Shown one piece after another: positions 785 to 51,845 of a DNA stretch of 64,000 bases. Numbering within the stretch: the first letter of the stretch is position 1; every line of letters starts with the position of its first letter. The stretch is taken from NCBI GenBank assembly GCA_902617975.1, contig CACMYV010000002.1:1-64000 (forward strand), in the 5' to 3' direction. This DNA comes from an uncultured Pelagibacteraceae bacterium. Lineage in GTDB: Bacteria; Pseudomonadota; Alphaproteobacteria; Pelagibacterales; Pelagibacteraceae. Below the pieces are notes generated by a model. That model saw only the letters and a list, made by a program, of their open reading frames with translations. It did not search any database and was not told the origin of the DNA. The position numbers and the translations under genes are program-made.

Positions 785-790
785 AGCTTT

Positions 791-1345: not shown

Positions 1346-1375
1346 AAACGACAATTAAATTTTTATCTGTATTTT

Positions 1376-2854: not shown

Positions 2855-2896
2855 AATTTAAGTCTATACTTAAATTTTTTTTTCTAAAAGTAAAAA

Positions 2897-3619: not shown

Positions 3620-3628
3620 TAAAATAAA

Positions 3629-4552: not shown

Positions 4553-4554
4553 AA

Positions 4555-5607
4555 TTAATTAACTCTTTTGCCAGTGCTTTTATCAAAAATATAATATTTA
4601 TTGTTCTCAATATTAAGACTTAGATCAGCACCTTTTTCAATAGTTAGATTTCCCGGACACCTATAACAAAAGTCTTTTTTGTCTTTTAATTGACCATAAA
4701 CAAGATTATCCGAACCAAGTTGTTCCACTAAGTCTACTTTTAAATTAATTAAACTATTTTCACTTTGACTTAAATGTTCAGGTCTTATTCCTAATTTTAC
4801 TTCTCCCTCAAAGTCACTATCAATATCTTTAATTTCAAAACCTTCTGCAGATAATGTTTTATTTTTTATATTACCATCTAAAAAATTCATTTGAGGTGAG
4901 CCAATAAAACCAGCAACAAATAATGATTTTGGATTATCATATATCTCAATAGGAGTTCCAAGCTGTTCAATAATTCCATTGTTAATAACTGCTAATCTAT
5001 CAGCAAGTGTCATGGCCTCTACTTGATCATGCGTAACAAATATGCTTGTTACTCCAACTTTCTGCTGAAGTTTTTTGATTTCAAGTCTCATCTGAATTCT
5101 TAATTTTGCATCTAAGTTTGAAAGAGGTTCATCAAATAAGAATATTTTAGGATTTCTAACAATTGCTCTACCCATTGCAACTCTTTGTCTTTGACCTCCG
5201 GATAACATTGAAGGTTTTCTCTGTAAATAATCTGAAATTTGTAGCAGCTTAGCTGCATCATTTACTTTTTGCTCAATTGTTTCTTTGTCAATTCCTCTGT
5301 TTTTTAGACCATAAGCCAAGTTATTATAAACATTCATATGTGGGTATAATGCATAGTTCTGAAACACCATTGCTACATCTCTTTCAGACGGATCTACCTC
5401 ATTAATTAATTTTCCATCAAGATTAATATCACCCTCTGTAATATCCTCTAAGCCTGCAACCATTCTTAATAAAGTTGATTTTCCACATCCACTAGGTCCT
5501 ACAAAAACCATAAACTCACCTTCATCAACACTTAATGAAGTTTCATGAACAGCCTTAGTTCCATTTGGGTAAATCTTAGTCACATTTTTTAAATCTAAAA
5601 AGCTCAT
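4555..5607 (-). CDS. ugpC: sn-Glycerol-3-phosphate ABC transporter ATP-binding protein
   Basis: This is the ATPase of the Ugp importer. Walker A GPSGCGKST lies near residue 38, the Q-loop at FQNYALYPH, the signature LSGGQRQR near 137, Walker B IFLFDEPLS and the H-loop VTHD. The region after about residue 240 is the TOBE-type regulatory domain (IRPEHLS). Its 350 residues are typical for MalK/UgpC. It directly follows the second ugpE (5608) with no spacing and precedes ugpQ, as in enteric ugp operons. MalK-like ATPases can serve more than one importer, so it might also energise another sugar-type system. Confidence 0.93.
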   Translation of the reverse strand: MSFLDLKNVTKIYPNGTKAVHETSLSVDEGEFMVFVGPSGCGKSTLLRMVAGLEDITEGDINLDGKLINEVDPSERDVAMVFQNYALYPHMNVYNNLAYGLKNRGIDKETIEQKVNDAAKLLQISDYLQRKPSMLSGGQRQRVAMGRAIVRNPKIFLFDEPLSNLDAKLRIQMRLEIKKLQQKVGVTSIFVTHDQVEAMTLADRLAVINNGIIEQLGTPIEIYDNPKSLFVAGFIGSPQMNFLDGNIKNKTLSAEGFEIKDIDSDFEGEVKLGIRPEHLSQSENSLINLKVDLVEQLGSDNLVYGQLKDKKDFCYRCPGNLTIEKGADLSLNIENNKYYIFDKSTGKRVN

Positions 5608-6459
5608 TTATTTCTCCGTTTGAATTAATCCTTTTATGAACCATTTTTGTAAAAATACTACCACTAAAACTGGTGGGATCATTGACAAAATGATATACGC
5701 AAATCTTTCTGCAGTTCTTGGCAGAGCAACTCCTTCATAGCTTTCTGTGTAAATAATCTTCATTCCCATTACAACAGTCCAGTATTCTTCTGCAGTTGTC
5801 ATTATTAGTGGCCATAAATATTGGCTGTATCCATATACAAACATAAAGATAAACATTGCTGCTATCATGGTTTTAGATAATGGAACCAAGAAATCTATGA
5901 AAAAACTCCAAGCATTTGCTCCGTCTAATTTTGCTGACTCCAAGAGTTCATCTGGAATTGTTTTATAAAATTGTCTGAAGAAAAATGTTGCTGTAGCTGA
6001 AGCAACTAATGGAAGGATAAGGCCTGTATATGAATTTGTTAAACCTAAATCAGATACAATTTTATAGCTTGGAAAAATCCTTACCTCCAAAGGAACAAGT
6101 AGAGTAATAAAGATTAACCAAAAAATTGGTACAGCTAATTTAAATCTATAATAAACCAAAGCATATGCTGACATTGCTGAAATAACTACCTTAAGTGTTG
6201 CAATTCCTAATGCCATTATAAAACTATTAATAAACATTTTTGCAGCAGTCACTTCTTCTGACCAACCACCTTTTTCATTTAAAACTTCGTTATAGTTTCT
6301 TGCTAGCTGATCACCTATATGAAACTTCATACCTTCGGTTAATATAGTTACAGAGTCATGCGAAGAACTTGCAAAAGATATCCAAATAGGAACTACCATT
6401 AACAAGACTCCTAGTATTAAAATAATATGAGCAATTATTTGAAGTGGTTTAATTTTCAT
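5608..6459 (-). CDS. ugpE: Glycerol-3-phosphate ABC transporter permease, UgpE paralogue 2
   Basis: A six-helix inner membrane permease of the MalG/UgpE type. The EAA loop that docks the ATPase reads DELLESAKLDGANAW, followed by a loop ending PLSKTM. It is clearly a paralogue of the gene just upstream (6456-7277): long blocks such as the EAA loop, FFRQFYKT, QYLWPL and YWTVVMG are shared. The start overlaps the upstream stop by 4 bases (ATGA). Compared with paralogue 1 it has an extra periplasmic stretch (YTESYEGVALPRTAE) before the last helices. Either copy could pair with UgpA. Confidence 0.9.
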   Translation of the reverse strand: MKIKPLQIIAHIILILGVLLMVVPIWISFASSSHDSVTILTEGMKFHIGDQLARNYNEVLNEKGGWSEEVTAAKMFINSFIMALGIATLKVVISAMSAYALVYYRFKLAVPIFWLIFITLLVPLEVRIFPSYKIVSDLGLTNSYTGLILPLVASATATFFFRQFYKTIPDELLESAKLDGANAWSFFIDFLVPLSKTMIAAMFIFMFVYGYSQYLWPLIMTTAEEYWTVVMGMKIIYTESYEGVALPRTAERFAYIILSMIPPVLVVVFLQKWFIKGLIQTEK

Positions 6460-7277
6460 TTATCTTGAAAAACCCCCTTAATAAAATATTTCTGCAACAC
6501 AATTATAATTAAAATTGGTGGCACCATAGACATCATCACGAAAGCAAAACGATGAACAATTGAACCCGACATCATTTTTAATCCCATAACCACTGTCCAA
6601 TATTGTTCTGAAGTTGTTACCAATAATGGCCATAGATACTGATTGTAGCCAAAAACAAACATAAATATTAACATCGCTACAATCATTGTTTTTGACAAAG
6701 GAATTAAAAAATCAACAAAAAATCTCCAGGTATTTGCTCCATCAAGTTTTGCGGATTCAAGTAATTCATCTGGAACGGTTTTATAAAATTGTCGAAAGAA
6801 TAATGTTGCTATAGCTGATGCTGAAATAGGAACTATTAATCCAAAGTAAGAATTCACTAGATTAAGCTCAGCCATTACTGAATAAGTAGGGAAAATTCTT
6901 AACTCTAATGGTACTAAAATTGTAATAAATATAATCCAAAACAATAATGTTGCATATTTTATTCTGTAATAAACCAACGCGTAAGCAGCCATTAAAGATG
7001 TAACAACGGATAATATTGCAACTCCTGTAGCCATGATAAAACTATTAAAAAACATTTTAAATGCTGTTATCTCTTTAAAAAAACCACCCTGATATAATAA
7101 AACTCGTAAGTAATTTTCATAAAAGCTATCTCCTAAAAACATTTGGAGACCATTCATATTAATCATTGAACTCGTGTGCGTCGAGCTAGCAAAAATCATC
7201 CATACAGGAACTACCATGATTAGTATTCCAATGAGTAAAATTAAATGTGAAAAACTTGATGTGATAAATCTAGTCAT
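6456..7277 (-). CDS. ugpE: Glycerol-3-phosphate ABC transporter permease, UgpE paralogue 1
   Basis: MalG/UgpE-type inner membrane permease of 273 residues with about six hydrophobic helices and the EAA motif DELLESAKLDGANTW. It directly follows ugpA (shared base 7277) and overlaps the second ugpE copy. ABC importers of this class normally need one A-type and one E-type permease, so a second E-type gene is a tandem duplication. It lacks the extra insertion seen in paralogue 2. The two copies may form alternative UgpA/UgpE heterodimers or have slightly different substrate range; nothing in the sequence decides this. Confidence 0.9.
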   Translation of the reverse strand: MTRFITSSFSHLILLIGILIMVVPVWMIFASSTHTSSMINMNGLQMFLGDSFYENYLRVLLYQGGFFKEITAFKMFFNSFIMATGVAILSVVTSLMAAYALVYYRIKYATLLFWIIFITILVPLELRIFPTYSVMAELNLVNSYFGLIVPISASAIATLFFRQFYKTVPDELLESAKLDGANTWRFFVDFLIPLSKTMIVAMLIFMFVFGYNQYLWPLLVTTSEQYWTVVMGLKMMSGSIVHRFAFVMMSMVPPILIIIVLQKYFIKGVFQDK

Positions 7278-8155
7278 TAATTATAATGTATTTTCCCTTC
7301 GATATATCTAAATTGAAAAATCGTAATTACTAATACAATCAACATCATCATTATTGATTGAGCTCCTGCACTTCCTAAATCCAGTCCTCTAAATCCATCC
7401 ATGTAAGCTTTATAAACTAGAGTTCTTGTTTCACCGGAAGGAGCACCTATTGTTGTGGTATCAATAATTCCAAATGTATCAAAGAAAGCATACGTTATAT
7501 TAATAATTATTAAAAAGAATGTAGTTGGCATTAATAATGGGAATGTAATTGTCCAAAATCTTCTAAAACTATTTTTACAGTCAATCATTGATGCTTCAAT
7601 TACAGATTTTTGTATAGCTTGAAGTCCAGCCAAGAAGAAAATAAAATTAGCACTGATTTGCTTCCAAGAACCAGCTATGATTACGTAAATATAAGAGTCG
7701 AACACACTTTCGTACCAATTAAATCCCCACAGTTCGTGAAATAAATGATAAAGAAGACCAAATCTTTCACTAAAAAAATAATTTGCCATTACACCGACTA
7801 CCGCAGGCGCAATTGCATAAGGCCAAATTAAAAGTGTTTTGTAAGTGCTTTTACCATGCATTACATTATTAGCCTGAACGGCAAGTAATAATCCAATTGA
7901 GCCTGTAATTAACGTAATAACAAAACTATAAATAATAGTAAATTTGAAAGCTATGAAATAAGCTGGATCATCAAAAATAAATAAAAAATTGTCAAACCAT
8001 ACAAACTTCGATCCAAATCCAAAAGCATCTTGCATTGTAAATGCATCTCTAAAGGTTTGTATGATTGGCCAATATAAAAAAATTAACAATATACCTAGCT
8101 GCGGAGCTAAGAAAAGATATTGTGAATAGCTAGATTTGAATTGGACTTTTTTCAT
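7277..8155 (-). CDS. ugpA: Glycerol-3-phosphate ABC transporter permease UgpA
   Basis: MalF/UgpA-type permease of 292 residues with six predicted membrane segments. The N-terminus has the family-typical hydrophobic stretch (LLIFLYWPIIQTFRDAF) and the EAA-like docking loop IEASMIDCKNSFRRFW. It lies after ugpB, separated by a strong hairpin (8171-8202), and its last base overlaps the ugpE start. The start ATG at 8155 is only about 15 bases beyond the hairpin, so translation initiation probably depends on that structure or on RNA processing near it. Confidence 0.92.
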   Translation of the reverse strand: MKKVQFKSSYSQYLFLAPQLGILLIFLYWPIIQTFRDAFTMQDAFGFGSKFVWFDNFLFIFDDPAYFIAFKFTIIYSFVITLITGSIGLLLAVQANNVMHGKSTYKTLLIWPYAIAPAVVGVMANYFFSERFGLLYHLFHELWGFNWYESVFDSYIYVIIAGSWKQISANFIFFLAGLQAIQKSVIEASMIDCKNSFRRFWTITFPLLMPTTFFLIIINITYAFFDTFGIIDTTTIGAPSGETRTLVYKAYMDGFRGLDLGSAGAQSIMMMLIVLVITIFQFRYIEGKIHYN

Positions 8156-8170
8156 ACTTTTGTAAAAATA

Positions 8171-8202
8171 AATAAGGAGGGTAAATTAATACCCTCCTTA
8201 TT
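8171..8202 (-). terminator. Perfect 13-bp stem hairpin between ugpB and ugpA (partial terminator or mRNA stabiliser)
   Basis: AATAAGGAGGGTA and TACCCTCCTTATT are perfect inverted repeats around a 6-base loop. On the transcribed minus strand the hairpin begins 13 bases after the ugpB stop and is followed by TATTTTT, a short U-rich run, before the ugpA start. This is the classic position for a structure that protects or terminates the binding-protein message so that UgpB is made in excess over the permease. Similar elements occur after dctP, the amino acid binding protein and fbpA in this window. Confidence 0.85.
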
Positions 8203-8215
8203 GTTTTAATTATTC

Positions 8216-9523
8216 TTACAAAGTTTTAGCAAATTGCTTTAACAATTTAGCTGCACCTTTGTCCATATTCTGCAATCCTTTTTCGATTGATATTTTGCCG
8301 TTTAACATTGGCTCAATATTTTCGTAAATTACTTCACGAATTTGGGGCCAGTTACCAGCTCTATATCCACCAGGAATAGTTGAACCTTCTAAGCTTAATT
8401 GTTCACCAACTGCTTTATGATATGGAGAAGCTCTATAGAAATTTATAGTTTCAGCTAACTCTATACCACCTTTAGTCACTGCAGAGTAACCAGTCATATT
8501 GTGATAATACAGATCCATTTCTGGAGAACCCATAAATTCTATAAATTTAGCAAGTCCTTTGTACTCTTCCTCAGTATGACCATTTAAGATCCAGTTAGCA
8601 GCACCACCTATAAAAGTTGGATACTCTTTTCCTTTGGTTACTGAATCCCAGTAAGGAATATGATTAACTGTAAAGTTTGGAACAACACCTTTCATTCCAC
8701 CAAATGATGCAGCAGAACCAAACCAAAATGCAGCTTCACCTGCTATAAATGGTGCTTGATTGTCTCCCCACGCTCTTCCTTTATAGCCATATAAACCTTT
8801 ATCATACCATTCTTTAACTTTCTTCCAATGATAGACAAATGCATCAGTTTCAGCGAATAAAGTTTTTGTAGGAACAGCATCGTAACCATTATTTCCATCT
8901 AACATTAATAAATTATGTCTAGAAAAGAAATTTTCAGTCCAAATCCATGGACTATGACTTTGAACTAAAGGAATGTATCCAGCAGCTTTGATTTTTGGAG
9001 CCATGGCCTCAAATTCTTCATAAGTTTTTGGCACAGATTCAATTCCAACCTCTTTCAAAATGTCCATGTTTGCATACATCAAACAAGTTGAACTATTGAA
9101 AGGTACACCAATCATTTTTCCATCAGAGTCGGCATAGAAATTTTTAATGCCTGGAATATAGTTGTCAGCATCTACATCAATGCCATATTTCTTAGCCATT
9201 TCTTCAAAACCGATAACAACACCATTTTTTACTTGAGCTACCATGATTGCAGCACCAGCATCATAAACCTGTGAATAGTGTGGTTGGTCGCCTGCTCTAA
9301 ATGCAGCAATAGTTGCCGCCATGTTATCTTCATAACTTCCTTTTCCTGTAGGAATGACCGTATATTGATCTTGTGAAGCGTTAAATCTATTTGCAATTTC
9401 AATAATTACATCACCAAGAAAACCACTGTTTCCGTACCACCAATGAATTTCTGTTTTTGAATAACTGTGTGATGTAAAAGAGAAAGTAAATAGAATTGTT
9501 AAAACACTAAGTATTTTTTTCAT
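8216..9523 (-). CDS. ugpB: Glycerol-3-phosphate ABC transporter substrate-binding protein
   Basis: Periplasmic family 1 (sugar/G3P) binding protein of 435 residues with a signal peptide (MKKILSVLTILFTFSFTSHSYSK). The mature start EIHWWYGNSG and the blocks SHSPWIWTENFFSRHN and GGAANWILNGH resemble UgpB. It captures glycerol-3-phosphate and probably glycerophosphodiesters for UgpAEC. An AGAAGGA ribosome site lies just upstream of the ATG. It is the first gene of the minus-strand operon and is divergent from glpD. UgpB homologues can also bind glycerophosphocholine or other diesters, so the exact ligand is open. Confidence 0.92.
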   Translation of the reverse strand: MKKILSVLTILFTFSFTSHSYSKTEIHWWYGNSGFLGDVIIEIANRFNASQDQYTVIPTGKGSYEDNMAATIAAFRAGDQPHYSQVYDAGAAIMVAQVKNGVVIGFEEMAKKYGIDVDADNYIPGIKNFYADSDGKMIGVPFNSSTCLMYANMDILKEVGIESVPKTYEEFEAMAPKIKAAGYIPLVQSHSPWIWTENFFSRHNLLMLDGNNGYDAVPTKTLFAETDAFVYHWKKVKEWYDKGLYGYKGRAWGDNQAPFIAGEAAFWFGSAASFGGMKGVVPNFTVNHIPYWDSVTKGKEYPTFIGGAANWILNGHTEEEYKGLAKFIEFMGSPEMDLYYHNMTGYSAVTKGGIELAETINFYRASPYHKAVGEQLSLEGSTIPGGYRAGNWPQIREVIYENIEPMLNGKISIEKGLQNMDKGAAKLLKQFAKTL

Positions 9524-9663
9524 ATCTATCCTTCTGTTAAGTTTATTTTATTTTTTATTAATAATTTATTAATGTTAAGATATTATGAAATTGTAAATAA
9601 TTGCATTTAAAAATTTTAAATTTCTAAAAGAGGTTGTATATTTTAAAACAAATCATAATTTAA
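9524..9663. promoter_or_regulatory. Divergent ugpB/glpD promoter region with a 17-base AT palindrome
   Basis: The 140-base gap separates the divergent ugpB operon and glpD and must carry both promoters. It contains the perfect palindrome ATTTAAAAATTTTAAAT at 9605-9621, about 40 bases before the glpD start. In DNA this AT-rich, a palindrome of A/T only can arise by chance, so an operator role is only a suggestion. No PhoB-like direct repeats were recognised. Confidence 0.4.
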
Positions 9664-10815
9664 ATGTCTAAAATATTTGATTTATTCATAATAGGTGGCG
9701 GTATAAACGGTGCAGGTATTGCAAGAGATGCTGCAGGTAGAGGTTTATCAGTTTGTTTAGCTGACAAAGGTGAGATTGGAGGAGCAACCTCATCTTGGTC
9801 GACGAAATTAGTACATGGTGGTCTTCGTTATTTAGAAAATTATGAATTCAAACTAGTTAGAGAATCTCTGAAAGAAAGAGAAATAGTTTATAAAATTGCC
9901 AGACATATTTCCAAACCGATTCCTTTTATAATTCCTTATGCAGATAAAATTCGACCAGCCTGGTTAATTAAAATTGGTTTATTTTTGTATGATAATTTAG
10001 GTGGCAAAAGCAATATACCAAAATCAAAAACGTTTGATCTTACAAAAAAATTTTCAAATATTCTTAAGCAAAAATACAAAACTGGTTTTCAATATTTTGA
10101 CATACAAATTGACGATAAAAAATTAACGAAACTAAATGCTAAAGATGCAAAAAGAAATAAAGCTAAAATACTAGAATATAACAAAGTTAAAAAAGCTGAA
10201 ATTATTGACAATGAATGGATTATTAGTCTTGAAAAAGGTGAAAAAGTAAAATCAAAAATTTTAATTAATGCATCTGGACCATGGATAAACGAAACCTTAA
10301 ATAAAAATATAAAAATTAAATCTAAGAAAAAAATAAGATTAGTTAAAGGAAGTCATATTATTACAAAAAAATTGTACAAAGAAAATGTTGCATTCACATT
10401 TCAAAATACTGATAAAAGAATAATATTTGTGATACCTTATAAAGGGAAGTTTTCTTTAATTGGAACTACAGAAGTTGAGGTTAAATCACCAGAAAATAAA
10501 GGAATATCAAAAAAAGAAATTACATATTTAATTCGTTCAGTAAATAATTACTTAAAAAAACAAATCAGAACAAAGGACATTGTAGATACTTATTCAGGGA
10601 TAAGACCTCTAATTGAAGATTTTAATACAGCTTCAAAAGTCACAAGAGATTATGTTTTTGATTTAAAAATTATAAAAAAATTACCTTTATTGAATATATA
10701 TGGAGGAAAACTAACCACCTACAGAAAATTGTCTGAAAAAGTCCTTTTTGACCTTAGAAAGTTTTTACCTAAAACAAAAAAAGGTCCATGGACACACAAA
10801 AAGAAGCTTCTCTAA
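9664..10815 (+). CDS. glpD: FAD-dependent glycerol-3-phosphate dehydrogenase, lacking the C-terminal cap domain
   Basis: GlpD oxidises glycerol-3-phosphate to dihydroxyacetone phosphate and passes electrons to ubiquinone at the inner membrane. The FAD-binding motif GGGINGAGIARDAAGRG is at residues 11-27. TSSWSTKLVHGGLRYLE, the IRPLIED block and GGKLTTYRKL are characteristic. At 383 residues it is about 120 shorter than E. coli GlpD: it ends just after the GGKLTTYRKL helix, so the C-terminal helical DAO_C domain is missing. The stop is clean and the following DNA is taken up by the glycosylase gene, so this looks like a compact enzyme rather than a recent frameshift. It is divergent from the ugp operon. 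Confidence 0.9.
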   Translation: MSKIFDLFIIGGGINGAGIARDAAGRGLSVCLADKGEIGGATSSWSTKLVHGGLRYLENYEFKLVRESLKEREIVYKIARHISKPIPFIIPYADKIRPAWLIKIGLFLYDNLGGKSNIPKSKTFDLTKKFSNILKQKYKTGFQYFDIQIDDKKLTKLNAKDAKRNKAKILEYNKVKKAEIIDNEWIISLEKGEKVKSKILINASGPWINETLNKNIKIKSKKKIRLVKGSHIITKKLYKENVAFTFQNTDKRIIFVIPYKGKFSLIGTTEVEVKSPENKGISKKEITYLIRSVNNYLKKQIRTKDIVDTYSGIRPLIEDFNTASKVTRDYVFDLKIIKKLPLLNIYGGKLTTYRKLSEKVLFDLRKFLPKTKKGPWTHKKKLL

Positions 10816-10820
10816 ACTTA

Positions 10821-11495
10821 ATGACCGTTAAATTTGAAAAATTAAAAAAAACAATAATTAAATGTAATAAATGCCCTAGACTTGTGAGGTTTAGAAAAAA
10901 AATATCTACGGAAAAAAGAAAACAATATATGGACCAAACTTATTGGGGAAAACCAGTTACAGGTTTTGGAGATATAAATGGAAAAATAATGATTGTTGGT
11001 CTAGCACCAGCTGCTCATGGTGGAACAAGAACAGGCAGAGTATTTACAGGCGATAAATCATCGGACTTTTTATATAAATGTTTACACAATGTAAAAATTG
11101 CCAATCAAAGCAATTCAGATCATATAAATGATGGATTGAAAATAAAAAATACTTTCATAACTCCAGCTTTAAAGTGTGTTCCTCCAGGAGATAAGCCGTT
11201 AAATGATGAGTTAAAAAATTGTTTTGGTTATTTTAAATCTGAATTTGAAATACTTAAAAATCTCAAAATTGTTGTAGCTCTAGGTAAAATTGCCTTTGAT
11301 ACTTGCGTAAAATTTTATAGAGAAAATTTTGACTACACTGAAAGAGTAAAATTTGGTCATGGAACATATTATAAATTACCTAACAATGTATTGTTAATGG
11401 GGTGTTATCATCCAAGTCCAAGGAATGTAAATACTGGACGAATTAATGAAAAACAAATGACTAAACTATTTAAAAAAGTAAAAGAATTAGTTTAA
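10821..11495 (+). CDS. Uracil-DNA glycosylase, family 5 (UDGb type)
   Basis: The enzyme removes uracil (and some other deaminated bases) from DNA. Family 5 motifs are clear: GLAPAAHGGTRTGRVFTGD near residue 60 and CYHPSPRNVNTGR near the C-terminus. Four Cys suited to a 4Fe-4S cluster are present: CNKC near the N-terminus and a C-x14-C pair starting at LKCVPPGD. The ORF track begins at 10788 inside glpD; the ATG at 10821, five bases after the glpD stop, gives a normal-length protein and avoids the overlap, so it is preferred. The 3' end overlaps the convergent thioesterase gene by 9 bases. Confidence 0.9.
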   Translation: MTVKFEKLKKTIIKCNKCPRLVRFRKKISTEKRKQYMDQTYWGKPVTGFGDINGKIMIVGLAPAAHGGTRTGRVFTGDKSSDFLYKCLHNVKIANQSNSDHINDGLKIKNTFITPALKCVPPGDKPLNDELKNCFGYFKSEFEILKNLKIVVALGKIAFDTCVKFYRENFDYTERVKFGHGTYYKLPNNVLLMGCYHPSPRNVNTGRINEKQMTKLFKKVKELV

Positions 11496-11879: not shown

Positions 11880-11898
11880 CAATTGATATTAATAAAAT

Positions 11899-12552: not shown

Positions 12553-12647
12553 GTCCTCTCTATATAAAAGATAAAATAATTTTCAAATTCAAAATTTTGA
12601 CATTATTTAAACATGCATAAATCATTATTGTTCTCTACTTAGATGAT

Positions 12648-13780: not shown

Positions 13781-13782
13781 TA

Positions 13783-15259: not shown

Positions 15260-16597
15260 TTACTGCTGTCCATATAAGAGAGTTGGCAACCATAGTACTA
15301 TTTTTGGATACGCTATGATTATAATTAATCCAATTATCTGTAATACCATGAACTGCATCATTCCAAGATAAATATCTTTTAAATCCCAACTTGGAACTAC
15401 TCCTTTTAAAAAATACGCAGATAACGCTACGGGGGGTGAGAGCCAGGCGGTTTGCAAATTAACAGCAACAAGAATTGCAAACCAAGTTAAATTAAATCCT
15501 AATGCTTCTACCAATGGTAAAATAATAGGAACGACTATCATAACAATAGGTACCCACTCTAAAGGCCATCCTAAAAGAAAAATCATAATCATGATTATTC
15601 CTAAAATTAAATATTTGTTCATCTCTAGAGATAAAAGAAAATCTGTTAAAACCATTGGGGTTCCTAATCTTGCAAACACTGCTCCAAAGAAATTAGACGC
15701 AGCTACTAAAACCATAATTAGTGCAGAAATTTCTAAAGTTTTAACTAATGCATCTTGTAATTTTTTTAATGTTAATTTTTTGTAAGCTAATGAAAGTAAT
15801 AATGCACCACCTGCACCACATCCTGCAGCCTCTGTTGGCGTAGCAAATCCAAATAAAATACTACCTAATGCAGCAAATACTAATGCAGCGGGTGGCACTA
15901 ATCCTAAGAAAAATTCTAGCCATAATTTTTTTAAATCTGTTGTTCTTAATTCTTCTGGTATGGGTGGCCCTAATTTTGGGTTCATCATACATCTGAATGT
16001 AGTGTATGCAGCATATAAGCATGCCAACAATATTCCTGGAACAATTGCTGCAGCAAATAAATCAGTTACGGGAATTTCCATAATTGGACCCATAACTACA
16101 AGCATAATGCTCGGTGGAATTAGAATACCTAAAGTTCCTCCAGCAGTAATTGTACCAGCAGCTAATTTTACATCATAGTTTGATCTATTCATTGATTTTG
16201 CAGCCATAATTCCAAGAATTGTAACTGATGCACCAACTATTCCAGTTGCGGCAGCAAATATTACCGAAACAAATAAAACTGCATAATATAAAGAGCCTCT
16301 AACTCTTGCCAACATCATTTGGAAAGCTGAGAATAATCTTTCCATTAAACCTGCTTGTTCCATCATTATTCCCATAAATACAAATAAGGGGACGGCGGCG
16401 AGAGTTTGTTCGGTCATAACCATAGAAAATTGTAGTGTCATTAAATAGAAAACTAATTTTCCAAACCCTAAGTATCCAAAGACAAATCCTAAAAAAATAA
16501 GAGTAAATGAAATTGGAAATCCTATAAATATTGCAAACAACATCACACCAATAAGTATGAAACCTAAAATTGCAGGATCTATTAAATGTGAAAGCAT
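15260..16597 (-). CDS. dctM: TRAP transporter large permease subunit DctM
   Basis: A 445-residue polytopic protein with about twelve helices. Family motifs include VPLFVFMGIMMEQAG, GGTLGILIPPSIMLV near residue 155 and TPTEAAGCGAGGAL. DctM is the Na+-coupled transport channel of TRAP systems. The start ATG shares a base with the dctQ stop. It belongs with dctQ and dctP upstream; together they import an organic acid or related small solute. Confidence 0.95.
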   Translation of the reverse strand: MLSHLIDPAILGFILIGVMLFAIFIGFPISFTLIFLGFVFGYLGFGKLVFYLMTLQFSMVMTEQTLAAVPLFVFMGIMMEQAGLMERLFSAFQMMLARVRGSLYYAVLFVSVIFAAATGIVGASVTILGIMAAKSMNRSNYDVKLAAGTITAGGTLGILIPPSIMLVVMGPIMEIPVTDLFAAAIVPGILLACLYAAYTTFRCMMNPKLGPPIPEELRTTDLKKLWLEFFLGLVPPAALVFAALGSILFGFATPTEAAGCGAGGALLLSLAYKKLTLKKLQDALVKTLEISALIMVLVAASNFFGAVFARLGTPMVLTDFLLSLEMNKYLILGIIMIMIFLLGWPLEWVPIVMIVVPIILPLVEALGFNLTWFAILVAVNLQTAWLSPPVALSAYFLKGVVPSWDLKDIYLGMMQFMVLQIIGLIIIIAYPKIVLWLPTLLYGQQ

Positions 16598-17202
16598 TAA
16601 CTACCTGGCCATTTACCTTTGACGGCTGCGTAATAACTTTTAAAAAGTTCTGAAACACCTTGGATTAGAAGGAAAACAATTCCAATCCATAGACAAGATT
16701 TAATTGGCCACATATATGGCATCCATGTTGTGTCCATCCCTCTTTCGTTTCTCATTATACTTTCTTGGACAAAGCCTGTTGTCATATACAAAAAAACTAT
16801 TAATCCTGGAAAATAAAATAATAAGTAAAGCCAAAAATCTATTCTGCCTTGAGTTTTTACTTTAAAATTTCTATATAAAAAATCTGCTCTAATATGAACA
16901 CCTTTTGAAAGAGCGTATCCTGCTCCTAACATAAATAATGCTCCATAAAAAAATCTGCTCATATCATAAGCCCAGATTGTAGGAGCTAAAAATAATTTTC
17001 TTGCTAAAACTTCATAAACCATCCCAAGCATTAGTGGGATCGTAATCCAGCAAACAATATTTCCTATTAATTTACTAAATCTATCTATATTAACTATAGT
17101 TTTAGCCATCCAAGTTGGCATATCATCAGGCATCTTTCCTGATCCTGATCGCCTTTCAGCTATCATTTCATCTGAAATATCTAACTTTGGATTATCCGAC
17201 AT
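16597..17202 (-). CDS. dctQ: TRAP transporter small permease subunit DctQ
   Basis: A 201-residue protein with four hydrophobic helices, the usual DctQ layout, including GYALSKGVHIRADFLY and WPIKSCLWIGIVFLLIQG. The roughly 40-residue hydrophilic N-terminal tail is longer than in minimal DctQ proteins. It is separated from dctP by a terminator-like hairpin and overlaps dctM by one base. Confidence 0.92.
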   Translation of the reverse strand: MSDNPKLDISDEMIAERRSGSGKMPDDMPTWMAKTIVNIDRFSKLIGNIVCWITIPLMLGMVYEVLARKLFLAPTIWAYDMSRFFYGALFMLGAGYALSKGVHIRADFLYRNFKVKTQGRIDFWLYLLFYFPGLIVFLYMTTGFVQESIMRNERGMDTTWMPYMWPIKSCLWIGIVFLLIQGVSELFKSYYAAVKGKWPGS

Positions 17203-17220: not shown

Positions 17221-17244
17221 AAGCGGGCTTATAAAAGCCCGCTT
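17221..17244 (-). terminator. Rho-independent-type hairpin between dctP and dctQ
   Basis: AAGCGGGCTT and AAGCCCGCTT form a perfect 10-bp stem with a 4-base loop (ATAA on the plus strand). On the transcribed minus strand the stem is followed by seven further Ts, so this is a textbook intrinsic terminator. It lies about 11 bases after the dctP stop and about 20 bases before the dctQ start. Because dctQ and dctM have no other obvious promoter, it is probably leaky and keeps binding protein in excess over permease. Confidence 0.88.
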
Positions 17245-17255: not shown

Positions 17256-18353
17256 TTATTTCTTCAACGAATTAGCATAAGCCATTCCTAGCTTAGCATT
17301 CGATGTTTGTGCACCTGACCAGAATGGTACAGCAGTATTAGCAAAGCTTATCATTGAGTCATAAACTTCTTTAAAGAATGCGTTTTCTTTTGCATTTTTC
17401 TCTAAAGTTGCTTTTGCTGCAGCCATATAAGCTGGGAAATAATCAGCTGGTGTATCTTCAAGTATCACACCATGATTTTCAGTTAGATCTTTAAGTGCTA
17501 ATCCATTAGTGTTGATTCTGTAAGCTAAAGCTCTCATCAACGATGCATCAGCAGCCATTTTCATTGAAAATTTCTCATGGTCAGTGAACTTATCGTAAGT
17601 GCTTTTATTTAAGTAAAAGTCAGCATTTACGACTACTTGGTGTAAACCTTGTAGATAGTAGTGTTTTAATACTTTATGTATACCAAACACTTTATCTGGT
17701 TGAGGACAACACCACTCAGCAGCATCAATAGTTCCTGCTTCCAATGCTGGAAGAATATCTCCACCACCCATTGCAACTGAAGCTATTCCAATGTCTTTAT
17801 ATGTTTGACCTGGAATTCCTGGAGGAGTTCTGAATTTAAATGTTCTGAAATCATCCATATCTTTGATTTTTCTTGGGAACCATCCTAGAGCTTCTGGACC
17901 TACTGGTTGAAGCATGAAACCTTTAATGTCTCTTTTCATTTCTCCCCAAAGTCTATCATATAGTTGTTCTCCACCACCATATAAAAACCATGATAAGAAT
18001 GCGATGTTATCAATTCCTACACCACCACCTGCTACTGGCGAACCAAATAACATAGCAGCTGGATGTTCTCCAGACCAATAGTGAGTCCAAGCAAATCCGC
18101 AATCAATCAAACCTTTATCAACAGCATCAAGAGTTTCTTTAACTCCAACTACTGTTCCCGCTGGCATAATTTCAAATTTTAGAGATCCACCTGTTAGTTT
18201 TGTTACGTTGTCAGTAAAGTCTTTTAACATTACCGCTTCATCACCTTTAGCGCTAATAACCGTCTGACACTTTAACGTTTTTGCAGCATTCGCATTTGAA
18301 ATAAATCCAAATACTAAGAAAGCAGCAAACAACGCTGAAACGATTTTTTTCAT
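17256..18353 (-). CDS. dctP: TRAP transporter substrate-binding protein DctP
   Basis: A 365-residue periplasmic TRAP binding protein with a signal peptide ending SNANAA. Conserved blocks include LDAVDKGLIDCGFAWTHYW, KFRTPPGIPGQTYKDIG with the ligand-binding Arg, and EAGTIDAAEWCCPQPDK. The last resembles the mannitol/chloroaromatic or 2-oxoacid (TakP-like) branch rather than C4-dicarboxylate DctP. It is the first gene of the minus-strand TRAP unit and is divergent from the GMC oxidoreductase gene. Confidence 0.92.
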   Translation of the reverse strand: MKKIVSALFAAFLVFGFISNANAAKTLKCQTVISAKGDEAVMLKDFTDNVTKLTGGSLKFEIMPAGTVVGVKETLDAVDKGLIDCGFAWTHYWSGEHPAAMLFGSPVAGGGVGIDNIAFLSWFLYGGGEQLYDRLWGEMKRDIKGFMLQPVGPEALGWFPRKIKDMDDFRTFKFRTPPGIPGQTYKDIGIASVAMGGGDILPALEAGTIDAAEWCCPQPDKVFGIHKVLKHYYLQGLHQVVVNADFYLNKSTYDKFTDHEKFSMKMAADASLMRALAYRINTNGLALKDLTENHGVILEDTPADYFPAYMAAAKATLEKNAKENAFFKEVYDSMISFANTAVPFWSGAQTSNAKLGMAYANSLKK

Positions 18354-32574: not shown

Positions 32575-33248
32575 GTTTGAAACCCATATTTTTTTTCTAA
32601 ATATTTAATTACATTATGAATTATAAAAGTCATAAACAAGTAAATACCTCCCGCCACAATAAATACCTCGACAGGCTTAAATGTTGTTGAAATTATATAT
32701 TTAGCAACACCAGTTAAGTCCATAAGTGTGACTGTACTTGCCAAGGATGTACCTTTAAGCATTAAAATAATTTCATTACCATAAGCCGGTAAAGATTGTT
32801 TTATTGCAATAGGAATTTGTATTTTTGTAAAAATAATTTTAGAAGGTATCCCTAGGCTTCTGCCAGCTTCTAAATATCCAGGCTTTATAGTTTGAAATGC
32901 TGATCTCAATATTTCTGATGTATAAGCACCAGTATTTAATGAAAATGCTATTATCGCGCACCAATATGGTTCTTTTAAAACTATCCACAAAAATGTTGTT
33001 CTTAAATATTCAATTTGACCTAATCCAAAATATATTATGAAGATTTGAACCAATAAGGGTGTTCCTCTAAAAATATATGAATACCCGTAAGCAAATTTAT
33101 TAATCAACTTATTATTATTCATTCTCAAGATTGCAAAACCTAATCCAATAAAAAGACCAAGAATTAAAGATACAGATAATAGTTTAAGAGTAATCAAAGT
33201 TGCATTCAGCAACTTAGGAAAACTACTAATCATTAATTCAATATCCAT
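32571..33248 (-). CDS. Polar amino acid ABC transporter permease (HisM/OccM type)
   Basis: A 225-residue inner membrane permease with about five helices. The His/Glu/Gln/Arg/opine family motif SAFQTIKPGYLEAGRSLGIPS is the EAA docking loop. It pairs with the HisQ-type permease just upstream, with which it shares base 33248. No ATPase gene is present in this cluster, so the energising subunit must be encoded elsewhere or borrowed. Confidence 0.92.
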   Translation of the reverse strand: MDIELMISSFPKLLNATLITLKLLSVSLILGLFIGLGFAILRMNNNKLINKFAYGYSYIFRGTPLLVQIFIIYFGLGQIEYLRTTFLWIVLKEPYWCAIIAFSLNTGAYTSEILRSAFQTIKPGYLEAGRSLGIPSKIIFTKIQIPIAIKQSLPAYGNEIILMLKGTSLASTVTLMDLTGVAKYIISTTFKPVEVFIVAGGIYLFMTFIIHNVIKYLEKKYGFQT

Positions 33249-33940
33249 TAATAACCTTTGCTATATTTTGTCTCTAATCTATTTAATAATTGCATACTTA
33301 AAAATGTAAGCATTAAGTATAGAACTGCTGCAAATGAGTAAAAAAATAATGGATCTCTAGTCGAACCAGCTGCAATATAAGATTGTCTCATTATTTCAAC
33401 TAAACCAGTTACAGATATAAGTGAAGTATCTTTTAATGTAATTTGCCAAACATTACTTAAGTTTGGAATTGCTAATCTTAGCATTTGAGGCAAAATAATT
33501 TTAAAGAAGTAAATATATTTTTTAAAACCTAAAACTTTTGCAGCTTCAAATTGACCTTTATCAATTGATTGAAGGGCTCCTCTAAATACTTCGGTTGAAT
33601 ATGCTCCCGATATTATCCCTATTGAAAATGAACCAGTTAAAAAAGCATTAATTTCGATGTAATCATTATAACCAAATATTGAAGCAACAAACATAATTGC
33701 TCCACTTCCACCAAAGAAAAATAAATAAATTACAAGAAGCTCTGGTACACCTCTAATAACAGTGGTGTATGCATTGCCAATAGAATTAAGAAATTTATTA
33801 TTAGATAATTTTAATGGAGTAAATAAAGCAGCAAATATAAAGCCAATTATCATTGCAGTTATGGAAACTGCAATTGTCATTAATGTTGCAAAGAATAACT
33901 CGTCTCCCCAACCTTTATCACCAAAATATAGAAGTTCCAT
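33248..33940 (-). CDS. Polar amino acid ABC transporter permease (HisQ/OccQ type)
   Basis: A 230-residue permease with about five helices and the docking loop GALQSIDKGQFEAAKVLGF. RGVPELLVIYLFFFGG is typical of the HisQ side of basic amino acid and opine importers. It lies after the binding-protein gene and a small hairpin (33947-33966), and its start ATG is 7 bases from that hairpin. It forms the membrane channel with the HisM-type subunit. Confidence 0.92.
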   Translation of the reverse strand: MELLYFGDKGWGDELFFATLMTIAVSITAMIIGFIFAALFTPLKLSNNKFLNSIGNAYTTVIRGVPELLVIYLFFFGGSGAIMFVASIFGYNDYIEINAFLTGSFSIGIISGAYSTEVFRGALQSIDKGQFEAAKVLGFKKYIYFFKIILPQMLRLAIPNLSNVWQITLKDTSLISVTGLVEIMRQSYIAAGSTRDPLFFYSFAAVLYLMLTFLSMQLLNRLETKYSKGY

Positions 33941-33946
33941 AATATA

Positions 33947-33966
33947 GGTGGCTAATTATAGCCACC
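33947..33966 (-). terminator. 8-bp hairpin between amino acid binding protein and permease genes
   Basis: GGTGGCTA and TAGCCACC form a perfect stem around a 4-base loop. It lies 14 bases after the binding-protein stop and 7 bases before the permease ATG. There is no T-run after it, so it is more likely an mRNA 3'-end stabiliser or translation modulator than a true terminator. Its position matches the hairpins after ugpB, dctP and fbpA. Confidence 0.65.
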
Positions 33967-33979
33967 CATAAATAATTTA

Positions 33980-34807
33980 TTACATAGAAGCGTCAAAACC
34001 AAAATGTTTTATAGCAAGCTTACTGATAATGCCATCATCTCTAGCTTTATCAATTGCTGCATTAAAATCATTTAAAAGTTTAGAGTCACCTTTTCTAATA
34101 CCTACACCAACACCATTTCCAAAATCTCCACCTGCAAATGTTGGTCCAGTTAATACTACTCCTTTACCAGATTTTTCTGCGTAATCTGTAAAAGCAACAG
34201 CTGCAGCTAGTGCCGCATCTATTCTACCTGCAGATAAATCTAAGTTTACTTCATCTTGAGTTTTGTAAGTTCTTATTTTTACATTACCCATTAATCCAGA
34301 TTCTAAGAAGTTCTGGTGAATTGTAGCAGTTTGCACACCAATAGTTTTACCTTTAAATGCTTTTGTCAAAACATCTAGTGTTGCTTGTTCATCAGCACTC
34401 ACATCAGATAAATTTATAGCTGACATTGTTTTAAGGCCTTCGTTTTTCGATCCTTTCATTACAGCTAGTGATGCAACTTCATCAGCATAACCTTGAGAAA
34501 AGTTTATTGTTTTCATTCTCTCACCAGTTATTGACATTCCAGCCATAATAGCATCAAATTTTCTTGAGACTAAAGCTGGTATCATTCCATCCCAATCTTG
34601 CTCAACAATTGTGCAATCATGTTTCATAATTTTGCATAATTCATTTGCTAATTCGACTTCAAAGCCAATCAAATTTCCTGCTGAGTCTTTAGAATTCCAA
34701 GGTGGATATGCACCTTCAGTTCCTATTTTAATTTGATCTGCAATAGAAGAAATTGTTAGAAATGATGATATTAAAATACCAAGTCCTAATACTTTTAATT
34801 TTTTCAT
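33980..34807 (-). CDS. Polar amino acid (lysine/arginine/ornithine/opine-type) ABC substrate-binding protein
   Basis: A 275-residue periplasmic family 3 binding protein with a signal peptide ending SSIADQ. The mature motifs IGTEGAYPPWNSKDSAGNLIGFEVEL, AIMAGMSITGERMKTINFS and the disulphide-type pair ELCKIMKHDC resemble ArgT/HisJ/NocT. Upstream genes make spermidine, so import of ornithine or arginine as a polyamine precursor is a reasonable inference but not shown. The start is preceded by a strong GGAGG site that lies within a perfect palindrome. Confidence 0.9.
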   Translation of the reverse strand: MKKLKVLGLGILISSFLTISSIADQIKIGTEGAYPPWNSKDSAGNLIGFEVELANELCKIMKHDCTIVEQDWDGMIPALVSRKFDAIMAGMSITGERMKTINFSQGYADEVASLAVMKGSKNEGLKTMSAINLSDVSADEQATLDVLTKAFKGKTIGVQTATIHQNFLESGLMGNVKIRTYKTQDEVNLDLSAGRIDAALAAAVAFTDYAEKSGKGVVLTGPTFAGGDFGNGVGVGIRKGDSKLLNDFNAAIDKARDDGIISKLAIKHFGFDASM

Positions 34808-47899: not shown

Positions 47900-48955
47900 T
47901 TAAAAGCAAACAATATGATCGATATGGATGGGTCTTTTTATACCAAATTTTTCATCGACTTCATGTTGATGAATATGATGAGAATGCACAAAAACTGGTA
48001 TTAATTTATTACTTAATGTTTTTAATGTATAAATAAAATTTGATCCTCTGAATTTTCTATCTACTACTTCAAGTTTAAGATTGCTCGCATCATCATGCTG
48101 TAAGTCCTCTGGCTGTATTAATAGTTTTACTTTAGATCCTATTGGGAACGGTCTAGCGAAATTTCCAGTTATTGTACCTAAATCTTCATTTTCAAGACTT
48201 TTCGGACTGGTAACTTCTGCTGGTATTAATGTGCCTCTATTTAAAAAATTAACTACCTCTACTGAATTTGGCAAATGATAAACATTATATGGATCATCAT
48301 ATTGCTTTAATTCACCATCTAATATTATTCCACATTTACTGCCTAAATAAAAAGCTTCATAAGAATCGTGTGTTACAATTATTGTAGTTATTTTAGAATT
48401 TGTTAAAATTTGTTTTAATTCAACTTGAATTTCCTCCTTAAAACTTTGATCTACATTAGATAATGGCTCATCAAGCATTAATAAATCAGGTTGAGAAACT
48501 AAAGATCTTGCTAGAGATGCTCTTTGGGCTTCGCCAGCACTTATCTCATGCGGAAATTTATTTAATATTTTGTTTAAGTTTAAAAAATTAATTACTTCTT
48601 TAGTTTGTATTTTTTTATCATCTTTCACTCTATCTGAGCCAAGATTAATATTTTTTTCTATATTGTAATGAGGAAATAAGCTGTTCTCTTGAAATGATAG
48701 AGCAATATTACGATTTTCTGGTTCAATATGAATATTTTCAGAAGAAATTGTTCTACCTTTTAGATTAATTTTACCTTTATTAATTTTTTCTAAACCTGCA
48801 ATAGTTCTTAATATTGTGGTTTTACCTATTCCAGATGGACCAAGTAAACATACTATTTCACCTTCATTTTCAATTTTTAATGAAACATTATTAACTTTAT
48901 TTTTCCCGCCAGCAGCAAAAGATACATTTTCAATTTCAAAAAAATTATTAGCCAT
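47900..48955 (-). CDS. fbpC: Fe(III) ABC transporter ATP-binding protein with unusual signature and His-rich tail
   Basis: A 351-residue ATPase of the FbpC/PotA group. Walker A GPSGIGKTT is near residue 38, Q-loop SFQENSLFPH, Walker B LLMLDEPLS and H-loop VTHD. The signature reads ISAGEAQRAS rather than the usual LSGGQ. The C-terminal regulatory domain ends in a His cluster (HSHHIHQHE). It shares a base with the permease gene and completes an FbpABC ferric iron importer together with the binding protein upstream. Confidence 0.88.
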   Translation of the reverse strand: MANNFFEIENVSFAAGGKNKVNNVSLKIENEGEIVCLLGPSGIGKTTILRTIAGLEKINKGKINLKGRTISSENIHIEPENRNIALSFQENSLFPHYNIEKNINLGSDRVKDDKKIQTKEVINFLNLNKILNKFPHEISAGEAQRASLARSLVSQPDLLMLDEPLSNVDQSFKEEIQVELKQILTNSKITTIIVTHDSYEAFYLGSKCGIILDGELKQYDDPYNVYHLPNSVEVVNFLNRGTLIPAEVTSPKSLENEDLGTITGNFARPFPIGSKVKLLIQPEDLQHDDASNLKLEVVDRKFRGSNFIYTLKTLSNKLIPVFVHSHHIHQHEVDEKFGIKRPIHIDHIVCF

Positions 48956-50565
48956 TAGTCTTTCAAAATAAATTTAGACGTAATCAAAATAAATGTACTT
49001 GCAATTAATATCAAGAATAATGATGGAACCGCTGCAGCCTCTAAAAGATCTTGAGATGCAAAAATATATGCTGTTGTAGCGAATGTTTCAAAGTTAAATG
49101 GTCTCAATATTAATGTGATAGGTAATTCTTTTATTACTTCTATTGTAATTAATATTCCTATTAGAAAAACAGAATTTTTTAAATAAGGAACATGAATTCC
49201 TAAAAAGGTTTTTATTTTCGAGTAACCAAGAAGATAAGAACTTTCATCAATTGACCTATTTATTCTTTCATAACCAGTTTTCAATCCATTATAAGCTAAT
49301 GAATAAAATCTGATAAAATAAACTATTACTAAACCAAAAATAGATCCTATAAATACTCTCTTTATAGAATTAAATTCAAAGGCTTTTATAAAAGTATTAT
49401 CAAACCAAGCAATAAAAGTGATGAATGCTACAGCTAAAATTACACCAGGGATTGCATAGCCAGTAATAGAAAATGTTGTAAGATAATTTAAGAATTTACT
49501 TTTAGTTACTCTGTTTCCATAATTTGAAATAAATGAAAAAATTACGAGAACAAGACTTGATAAAAATACCAAGTAAATTGTATTTATAAATAATTGAAAA
49601 GTATTTAAATCAAATAAATTTTTTGGAAAAATTATTGTCCAATACAACATTTGTAAAACAGGGAATAAAAAGCTGACTAAAAAAACTAAAAAACAAAATC
49701 CGAATGCTAAAGAACCTTTTGAAAAGTTTAATTTAATTTTCTTCTTTTCTTTAATTCCTCCCTTAACTGGAGAATGATATTGAGCTTTTTTTCTTGAGAT
49801 ATTCTCAATAAAAAAAAGTCCTAATATAAATAATAGCAAAAAAAATGAGAGTTGATTTGCAAAAGCTAAATCATCAAAAGATATCCATGAATCATATATT
49901 CCAGTAGTAAGGGTTGCTATTCCAAAAAATGATACTGCTCCAAAATCTGATAATGTTTCCATAGCAACTAATGCCAAACCCGCTACTATAGCTGGTCTTG
50001 CTGATGGTAAAATGATTTTAAAGAAAGATTTATATTTTGAAAAACCTAGATTTTGTCCTAATTCAATTAAATTTTGAGACTGATAATGAAAAGATGCTCT
50101 AGTTAAAACGTAAACATATCCAAATAGTGAAAAAGAAATAGATAAAATAGCACCAAGCATACCATCAAATTTTGGAATGGATTGATTATATTCACCAGGT
50201 CCAAATAAAGATTTCAATATTGAGTATAGTGTTCCAAAGTTTTCAAAAAAAGCAGTTAATGAATAAGCATAAATGTAAGCAGGTACTGCAAAAGATAATA
50301 TTAAAGCCCATTTAAAAAATTTAACGCATGGAAAATCATAAAATGAAACTACATATGCACTGCCAACACCTAAGAATAATGTAAGAACTAAAACTCCTAA
50401 AAGTAATATTAAGGAATTATAAATATATTCAATTAAAAATGTATTTTTTAAAATATCAAAGTAATTAGTTGTTTCTTGGAAGAAACTTGCAAACACAGTT
50501 AAAATTGGAATTGCAACAACAAATGAAACTATAAAAGATGATAAGTACCAGGAATTAAATTTCAT
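48955..50565 (-). CDS. fbpB: Fe(III) ABC transporter permease, double-length
   Basis: A 536-residue membrane protein with two MetI-like permease halves (about 1-260 and 290-536), the usual FbpB arrangement in which one chain forms the whole channel. Each half has its own docking loop, LIELGQNLGFSKYKSFF and IDESSYLLGYSKIKTFL. A charged linker (SRKKAQYHSPVKGG) separates them. It lies after the binding-protein gene, a 57-residue Cys protein and a hairpin, and is coupled to fbpC by one shared base. Confidence 0.92.
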   Translation of the reverse strand: MKFNSWYLSSFIVSFVVAIPILTVFASFFQETTNYFDILKNTFLIEYIYNSLILLLGVLVLTLFLGVGSAYVVSFYDFPCVKFFKWALILSFAVPAYIYAYSLTAFFENFGTLYSILKSLFGPGEYNQSIPKFDGMLGAILSISFSLFGYVYVLTRASFHYQSQNLIELGQNLGFSKYKSFFKIILPSARPAIVAGLALVAMETLSDFGAVSFFGIATLTTGIYDSWISFDDLAFANQLSFFLLLFILGLFFIENISRKKAQYHSPVKGGIKEKKKIKLNFSKGSLAFGFCFLVFLVSFLFPVLQMLYWTIIFPKNLFDLNTFQLFINTIYLVFLSSLVLVIFSFISNYGNRVTKSKFLNYLTTFSITGYAIPGVILAVAFITFIAWFDNTFIKAFEFNSIKRVFIGSIFGLVIVYFIRFYSLAYNGLKTGYERINRSIDESSYLLGYSKIKTFLGIHVPYLKNSVFLIGILITIEVIKELPITLILRPFNFETFATTAYIFASQDLLEAAAVPSLFLILIASTFILITSKFILKD

Positions 50566-50601: not shown

Positions 50602-50635
50602 GTGCCCATGGCTTAGGAGACCAAACCATAGGCAC
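50602..50635 (-). terminator. Hairpin between the fbpA/small-protein genes and fbpB
   Basis: GTGCCCATGG and CCATAGGCAC pair over 10 bp with one G-U pair on the minus-strand RNA and a 14-base loop. The stem is followed on the minus strand by TTTTGATTTT. It lies 13 bases after the stop of the 57-residue ORF and about 35 bases before fbpB. It is positioned like a leaky terminator or message stabiliser that limits permease expression relative to the binding protein. Confidence 0.7.
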
Positions 50636-50648: not shown

Positions 50649-50822
50649 TCAAAAATTAAATACTTTTAGGATATGCGGAACCTCCTTAGTTTTAATTTCA
50701 GTCAATTTTCTATTATTTACACGTTTATTGATTTTTTCACACTCCGAAGCACATGCAGGACAGGCTTTGGAAGATTTATTATAATCAATTTCCGTAGTAA
50801 ATTTTTTTTTAACAGCTATCAT
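50649..50822 (-). CDS. Small Cys-containing protein (57 residues) inside the iron transporter operon
   Basis: Not in the ORF track. The ATG at 50822 directly abuts the fbpA stop (TAA-ATG), with GGAAG a few bases upstream as a likely ribosome site. The protein starts MIAVKKKFTTEID, carries the Cys cluster KACPACASECEK (CxxC with a third Cys three residues later) and ends HILKVFNF. It fills the gap between fbpA and the hairpin. No signal peptide or family is recognised. The Cys spacing suggests binding of iron, zinc or an Fe-S cluster, which is inference. Confidence 0.6.
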   Translation of the reverse strand: MIAVKKKFTTEIDYNKSSKACPACASECEKINKRVNNRKLTEIKTKEVPHILKVFNF

Positions 50823-51845
50823 TTACTTCCAACCTGCAGCCAACATTACTTCTAATGCATCTGCTTGTTTTGCACCGTATGACTTAACACTTGTTTTAGT
50901 ATCCATTACAAAGTTCATCTCTTTGCCTGGAACTAAATCATTAGGTGTTACACCACCGATCATTGGATACTCAAAAGTATTATTTACAATATGATTTTGA
51001 GCCTCTGTTGATAATAAAAACTCAACTAATTTTACAGCATTAGCTTTGTTTGGTGCATGTTTAAGCATACCAGCTCCACTAATATTAATGTGCGTTCCTC
51101 TATCTTGTTGATTAGGGAAAAAAGGTATTACTTTTTTTGCTGCTTCTTGTTGTTCAGCACCTTTTTTTCCAGATAACATCAATGCATGGTAATATGTGTT
51201 TGCAACAGCTATATCAGCTTCTCCAGCCGCAACAGCCATGATTTGAGCACGGTCGTTACCTTTTGGAGTTCTAGCCATGTTTGCTACAACAGCTTTAGAC
51301 CATTCTGCAGTTTTAGCTTTACCATTATTCTTAACTAGTGAAGCAACTAAAGACTGGTTATAAATGTTATTAGATTTTCTTATTACTAGTCTACCTTTCC
51401 ATTTTGGATCAGCTAGACCTTCGTAAGTCATGCCATTTAGTTCATTTGCATTTACTCTTTCAGGTGAATAATAAATTATTCTTGCTCTCTTAGCTATTCC
51501 AGTCCATTTAGCAGATCTAAATTGTGCAGGTACAGCATCCTTAATAGCTTTTGACCAACCAGCGTTTTGCATCATGCCTTTGGCTGCAAATGCACCTAAT
51601 CTTCCAGCATCAGCTGTGATGTATAAATCTCCAACACAGTCTGCTCCCTCTTCTGTAATTCTTTTTTGCAGGGCTTTATCTTTACCTGATACTACGTTTA
51701 CTTTAATTCCTGTTGCTGCTGTGAACTTTTCATATAATTGAATGTCAGAATCGTAGTGTCTTGCACTAAAAATATTGACCTCAGCTGCAATCGTAAAACT
51801 TGAAATTAAAGCAAAAAACAATGAAATTATTGTCAATTTTCTCAT
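50823..51845 (-). CDS. fbpA: Fe(III) ABC transporter substrate-binding protein
   Basis: A periplasmic ferric-iron binding protein of about 340 residues. From the ATG at 51845, with AAGGAG 6 bases upstream, it opens with a signal peptide (MRKLTIISLFFALISSFTIAA) and the mature start EVNIFSARHYDSD, the FbpA/FutA pattern. Tyr residues in NTYYHALM provide the family's iron ligands. The track start at 51914 adds 23 residues that read through the promoter and is rejected. Fur-box-like sites lie upstream. Confidence 0.92.
   Translation of the reverse strand: MRKLTIISLFFALISSFTIAAEVNIFSARHYDSDIQLYEKFTAATGIKVNVVSGKDKALQKRITEEGADCVGDLYITADAGRLGAFAAKGMMQNAGWSKAIKDAVPAQFRSAKWTGIAKRARIIYYSPERVNANELNGMTYEGLADPKWKGRLVIRKSNNIYNQSLVASLVKNNGKAKTAEWSKAVVANMARTPKGNDRAQIMAVAAGEADIAVANTYYHALMLSGKKGAEQQEAAKKVIPFFPNQQDRGTHINISGAGMLKHAPNKANAVKLVEFLLSTEAQNHIVNNTFEYPMIGGVTPNDLVPGKEMNFVMDTKTSVKSYGAKQADALEVMLAAGWK

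Follow-up and report, generated by a model that had tools for sequence, protein, structure and literature searches.

Strong hairpins mark the 3' ends of binding-protein genes in SAR11 bacteria and probably act as partial terminators

The window analyzed here (64,000 nucleotides, positions 1 to 64,000 of contig CACMYV010000002.1) comes from a member of the Pelagibacteraceae (SAR11, the most numerous bacteria of the ocean), and the nearest named relatives of its amino-acid binding-protein locus all belong to the Pelagibacteraceae. Family searches identified four periplasmic, nutrient-catching substrate-binding proteins (SBPs) in the window, exactly those beside four intergenic hairpins, and the transport genes flanking all four hairpins lie on the minus strand (Table 1). 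Pfam matches back the identities of the SBPs and of three permeases, giving the neighborhoods SBP_bac_8, DctP and DctQ, SBP_bac_3 and BPD_transp_1, and SBP_bac_6/8 and BPD_transp_1; the ugpA-like permease was matched by a whole-genome search. The four dyads, which the original prediction had placed at these junctions, are all present in the DNA at exactly the positions it gave, with stems as it described them.

Table 1. Transport genes, hairpins and a small ORF at the four binding-protein loci of the window.
Feature	Position	Strand	Description or basis
Permease gene, ugpA-like	7277..8155	-	PF00528 match from genome search
Terminator-like hairpin, ugpB-type SBP/permease	8171..8202	-	Perfect 13-bp stem, 6-nt loop, T-rich coding-strand tail
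SBP gene, SBP_bac_8, ugpB-like	8216..9523	-	Pfam
TRAP small permease gene dctQ	16597..17202	-	Pfam
Terminator-like hairpin, dctP/dctQ	17221..17244	-	Perfect 10-bp stem, 4-nt loop, coding-strand T run
TRAP SBP gene dctP	17256..18353	-	Pfam
hisQ-type permease gene, BPD_transp_1	33248..33940	-	Pfam
Hairpin, amino-acid SBP/hisQ-type permease	33943..33970	-	8-bp perfect core at 33947-33966; 12 bp with one G.U
Amino-acid SBP gene, SBP_bac_3	33980..34807	-	Pfam
fbpB-type permease gene, BPD_transp_1	48955..50565	-	Pfam
Hairpin upstream of fbpB	50602..50635	-	10-bp stem with one G.U, 14-nt loop, T-rich tail
57-codon ORF with CxxC motif	50649..50822	-	Begins directly after the fbpA stop codon (TAAATG junction)
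fbpA-type SBP gene, SBP_bac_6/8	50823..51845 (ATG start; 51914 with TTG start)	-	Pfam

A U-rich tract is present in three of the four window hairpins. Read on the coding strand, the ugpB/ugpA hairpin is AATAAGGAGGGTA-loop-TACCCTCCTTATT with the tail TATTTTTA; the dctP/dctQ hairpin, which in form appears to be a textbook terminator, is AAGCGGGCTT-loop-AAGCCCGCTT with the tail TTTTTTTTCTA; and the hairpin between fbpA plus a small ORF and fbpB (-24.3 kcal/mol in a 45-nt window) is GTGCCTATGG-loop-CCATGGGCAC with the tail TTTTGATTTT. The exception is the amino-acid SBP/hisQ hairpin (-19.1 kcal/mol), which has no T-run and adjoins the hisQ ATG: its coding strand reads TATGGGTGGCTA-TAAT-TAGCCACCTATA, followed directly by TTATG, the hisQ start. 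An Rfam scan of the window for a known RNA family, such as a riboswitch or attenuator, returned one tRNA and nothing else.

At the fbpA locus, the 187 nt between fbpA and the hairpin hold a conserved 57-codon ORF. Relatives of this ORF occupy the same place in other SAR11 genomes (G003 and G002, with a partial match in G035), and it is absent in G017 and G026; it represents an unannotated small protein of a transporter operon of the Fe(III)/SBP_bac_6 type. Across the fbpA group, a strong hairpin is found in three of seven genomes, sited after the small ORF. A long inverted repeat (TGATTATCAATTGC...GCAATTGATAATCA, ~51921-51957) lies between a LysR-type regulator gene and fbpA and may be the operator of that regulator; orthologous LysR/fbpA gaps showed no dyad of equal strength.

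We surveyed 11 SAR11 genomes, in which SBP genes were located by five Pfam families (DctP, SBP_bac_8, SBP_bac_3, Peripla_BP_6, and OpuAC). Genes were called in 2.4 Mb around the SBP genes, giving 2,322 gene ends (141 SBP and 2,181 other), and each end was scored by its lowest 40-nt fold energy in the stretch from 13 nt ahead of the last stop-codon base to 110 nt past it, a measure that under-scores hairpins longer than 40 nt; dinucleotide shuffles served as the null. Under the strict rule, a strong hairpin has a 40-nt fold energy of -15 kcal/mol or lower and lies inside the gap; the looser cut-off was -12 kcal/mol or lower.

By the strict rule, 115 of the 141 SBP ends carried a strong hairpin versus 36 of the 2,181 others, the control genes being drawn from 20-kb stretches around SBPs (Fisher p ~4e-135). 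At gene ends 5 kb or more from any SBP, the non-SBP figure was 22 of 1,015 junctions. The difference persisted in same-strand gaps matched for length (20-150 nt), with strong hairpins in 96/103 SBP gaps versus 20/399 others (p ~1e-73); this enrichment of SBP-permease junctions over other gaps is the very comparison on which the original prediction had staked itself, and it came out in its favor. Junctions between an SBP and a membrane protein reached -12 kcal/mol in 89% of cases (n = 94, median -18.7; shuffles 2%), as against 6% of non-SBP same-strand ends (n = 1494, median -6.8) and 5% of non-SBP convergent ends (n = 687). Within the convergent set, gaps of 20-200 nt stood at 18% of 104, some of these being mirror images of SBP hairpins. 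The effect was seen in all 11 genomes and was alike in the five SBP families (medians -17.6 to -19.3), and the hairpins span TRAP, amino-acid, sugar/polyol, osmolyte-type, and branched-chain families, in line with the proposal that unrelated transporter classes share them.

The position of the element points to the SBP gene itself. Immediately upstream of SBP genes, a hairpin at the -12 threshold was present in just one of 79 junctions, which places the element on the 3' side of the SBP gene. SBPs that have no co-directional gene downstream mostly carry a hairpin too, so the element is more than a junction device. The proposed tie to the SBP/permease junction as such is not supported; the element marks the SBP 3' end, and some AmtB, rhodopsin, and outer-membrane-protein genes carry it as well. 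The 36 carriers of a hairpin that fall outside the five families include at least seven genes for SBPs of other families (SBP_bac_1, SBP_bac_5, NMT1-like, and TctC); the rest include genes for three AmtB orthologues, one bacteriorhodopsin-like protein, and outer-membrane proteins, as well as mirror images from convergent genes. The ammonium transporter genes with a strong hairpin are at G009:C1:14870, G022:C1:932782, and G040:C1:233069, and the bacteriorhodopsin-like gene is at G035:C1:530458. A chance origin of the SBP hairpins is ruled out by the shuffles, the matched gaps, and the control upstream of SBP genes.

Regarding INDEPENDENCE, position, and exceptions, 35 of 43 SBP orthologue clusters have a hairpin in most members. 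The eight exceptional clusters comprise four of Peripla_BP_6 (12, 28, 39, and 42), the fbpA group, one SBP_bac_3 group with weak A/T-rich stems only, and two singletons. The claim that every SBP operon carries a hairpin holds for the four SBPs of the window and fails beyond it, as the fbpA family shows, together with a dctP gene of the same genome (G000:C5:10357) that reaches only -9.1 kcal/mol. In clusters 12, 28, 39, and 42 the gene of the Peripla_BP_6 protein overlaps a convergent gene; judging by its neighbor, we suspect an LpoA-like cell-wall protein, not a transport SBP. A Peripla_BP_6 gene of this description at G000:C5:54828 and its relatives in other SAR11 genomes never carry a hairpin.

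The SBP hairpins of SAR11 have a median of 13 pairs, six G-C pairs, and a 4-nt loop, and their GC core starts at a tight offset from the stop codon (median 18 nt). The stem is followed by a T-tract (five or more T among the 8 nt past the GC stem) in 76% of cases versus 20% in the background, and T after the stem exceeds A before it in 79 cases, with the reverse in 16, an asymmetry oriented as in a terminator that acts on the SBP transcript. The gaps are mostly shorter than 100 nt and follow directly on the stop codon, leaving little room for an antiterminator structure. With gene starts assigned mechanically, 83 of 102 GC stems are followed by the next ATG at under 40 nt; a promoter of its own would hardly fit there, so that the permease should rely on read-through. 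A promoter scan did no better than expectation at 30% GC, with 106 sites where 109 were expected.

Roughly 24% of the SBP hairpins have no good T-tract, the clearest of them being the one at the amino-acid SBP/hisQ junction. This hairpin was present in all 81 loci examined, which represent 36 distinct gap sequences, and its position relative to the hisQ ATG is kept in every one despite the sequence change. Stem variants include GGTGGC/GCCACC, GGCGAC/GTCGCC, and GGCGGT/ACCGCC; among 22 distinct SAR11 sequences, 99.4% of cells are paired and three pairs have changed on both sides, that is, by compensatory changes.

Taken together, we consider it probable (about 0.7) that most SBP hairpins are partial terminators that yield an excess of monocistronic SBP mRNA, each defining and protecting the 3' end of its message. 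Most would be inefficient intrinsic (Rho-independent) terminators: polymerase leaving the SBP gene would mostly halt at the hairpin and T-tract, releasing plentiful monocistronic SBP mRNA whose 3' end is protected, while a minority of polymerases would go on to transcribe the permease (and ATPase) genes. The hairpin thus probably stops most transcripts, which would provide far more SBP than membrane transporter, and the efficiency of termination could fix the SBP:transporter ratio with no regulator needed. Because SBPs without a downstream gene also have the hairpin, a ratio function alone is insufficient, and the hairpin may also set and protect the 3' end of an SBP message made at a high level. 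From the sequence we infer termination, read-through, RNA stability, and the ratio of SBP to permease protein; the quarter or so of hairpins with no good T-tract and the SBP operons that have no hairpin count against partial termination. Where the T-tract is missing and the stem stands at the permease start, as at amino-acid SBP/hisQ junctions, 3'-end protection after processing, masking of the start, or both would probably do the same work, and we propose that SAR11 meets a single need in two ways, by partial termination in most cases and by protection and/or masking in the hisQ subclass.

A less probable reading is that the hairpins terminate nothing but, once the polycistronic mRNA has been cut, stand in the way of 3'-to-5' exonucleases, so that the SBP part outlives the permease part in the manner of malE-malF. 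The hairpins that lack a T-tract would fit such a block, as would those after AmtB, rhodopsin, and outer-membrane-protein genes, and SBPs at operon ends carry a hairpin where most other operon ends have none, as expected of stabilized, abundant messages. Against it, the T-tract on the coding-strand side occurs far above background and would be unneeded for a pure block, and the hairpins have no REP-like repeat in common. Somewhat more doubtful still is the idea that they chiefly hide the start region of the permease and so lower its translation, instead of acting on RNA. Of 102 GC stems, 28 stop no more than 9 nt short of the ATG, Shine-Dalgarno-like motifs are rarer before these permeases (11% vs 22%), and the constant placement of the hisQ hairpin amid changing sequence would suit masking as well; yet the stem ends further off in the other 74, of which 64 have a T-tract, and SBPs with no gene downstream have hairpins too. 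That the hairpins are ordinary end-of-gene terminators or chance dyads unlinked to SBPs, with permeases using their own promoters, is very improbable: terminator-like sites in positions 1-20000 of the window barely exceed shuffles (12 vs 7.5, sd 3.2), but other gene ends stay near the shuffled level while matched SBP gaps do not, most permease ATGs are too close to the stem, and the structure is conserved with compensatory changes.

In Escherichia coli, a REP intercistronic hairpin lies between the binding-protein gene malE and the permease gene malF and is thought to raise SBP over permease. The SAR11 hairpins occupy the same kind of position, but the malE-malF element belongs to a repeated sequence family, whereas the SAR11 hairpins share no common sequence and mostly have T-tracts. 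Membership in a REP/BIME family was rejected, since GC cores of different SBP clusters are hardly more alike within one genome than between genomes (mean score 1.46 vs 1.29). The malE-malF comparison drawn in the original prediction is therefore a poor one, and the terminators of Clostridia are closer (PMC9045158). In cellulolytic Clostridia, experiments have shown that ABC importer operons carry internal intrinsic terminators downstream of the SBP gene; in R. cellulolyticum they stop 20.7-96.1% of transcripts by measurement, and a wide occurrence has been suggested, with no fewer than 15 stem-loops in E. coli (PMC9045158). As in Clostridia, a single GC-rich stem-loop stands between the SBP and same-strand translocator genes (at fbpA displaced behind the 57-codon ORF), the SBP comes first in the operon, and the stem is followed by a U-rich tract of variable quality, weak-U cases included (PMC9045158). 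In Clostridia termination and ratio were measured (PMC9045158), whereas in SAR11 they are predicted from sequence; in addition, the SAR11 elements serve TRAP transporters as well, follow almost every SBP gene and few other genes, and include a conserved subclass that has no U-tract and adjoins the permease start.

Meyer et al. (2009; PMC2704228) likewise looked at SAR11 intergenic regions in their search for candidate structured RNAs of Cand. Pelagibacter ubique. They targeted long, relatively GC-rich regions and reported a bulged hairpin near rhtB/livK with poly-U after about half of the examples; the parts consulted describe no SBP-linked class, and the SAR11 SBP gaps are mostly ~40-90 nt. 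The openly accessible literature yielded no SAR11-specific report of an association between SBPs and hairpins. Nor is the element confined to SAR11 or peculiar to streamlined genomes: outside the Pelagibacteraceae, 31 of 48 dctP genes have a significant hairpin (two in the same order but another family, 46 elsewhere in Alphaproteobacteria). The effect is weaker in this outgroup than in SAR11, where 47 of 48 dctP genes have one, suggesting a habit that is wider than SAR11 and near fixed there. This is a known kind of element that is unusually pervasive in SAR11, and the original interpretation is partly supported.

Ordinary SAR11 gene ends (convergent ends in the 11 genomes) show nearly no hairpin excess over shuffles, so most SAR11 operons must end otherwise, by Rho or weak signals. 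More tentatively, SAR11 may come close to reserving strong intrinsic hairpins for the genes of SBPs and of a handful of further envelope proteins that are probably abundant, with hairpin efficiency setting the SBP:transporter ratio in a hard-wired way that needs no regulator and with ordinary operon ends terminating by other means. Theory takes this ratio to set the nanomolar uptake affinity of oligotrophs, and the hairpins are a candidate genetic means to hold it where a genome encodes few regulators. Any SAR11 genome sequence reveals them and, given the SBPs among the extra carriers (at least 7/36), they may help to find unannotated SBP genes.
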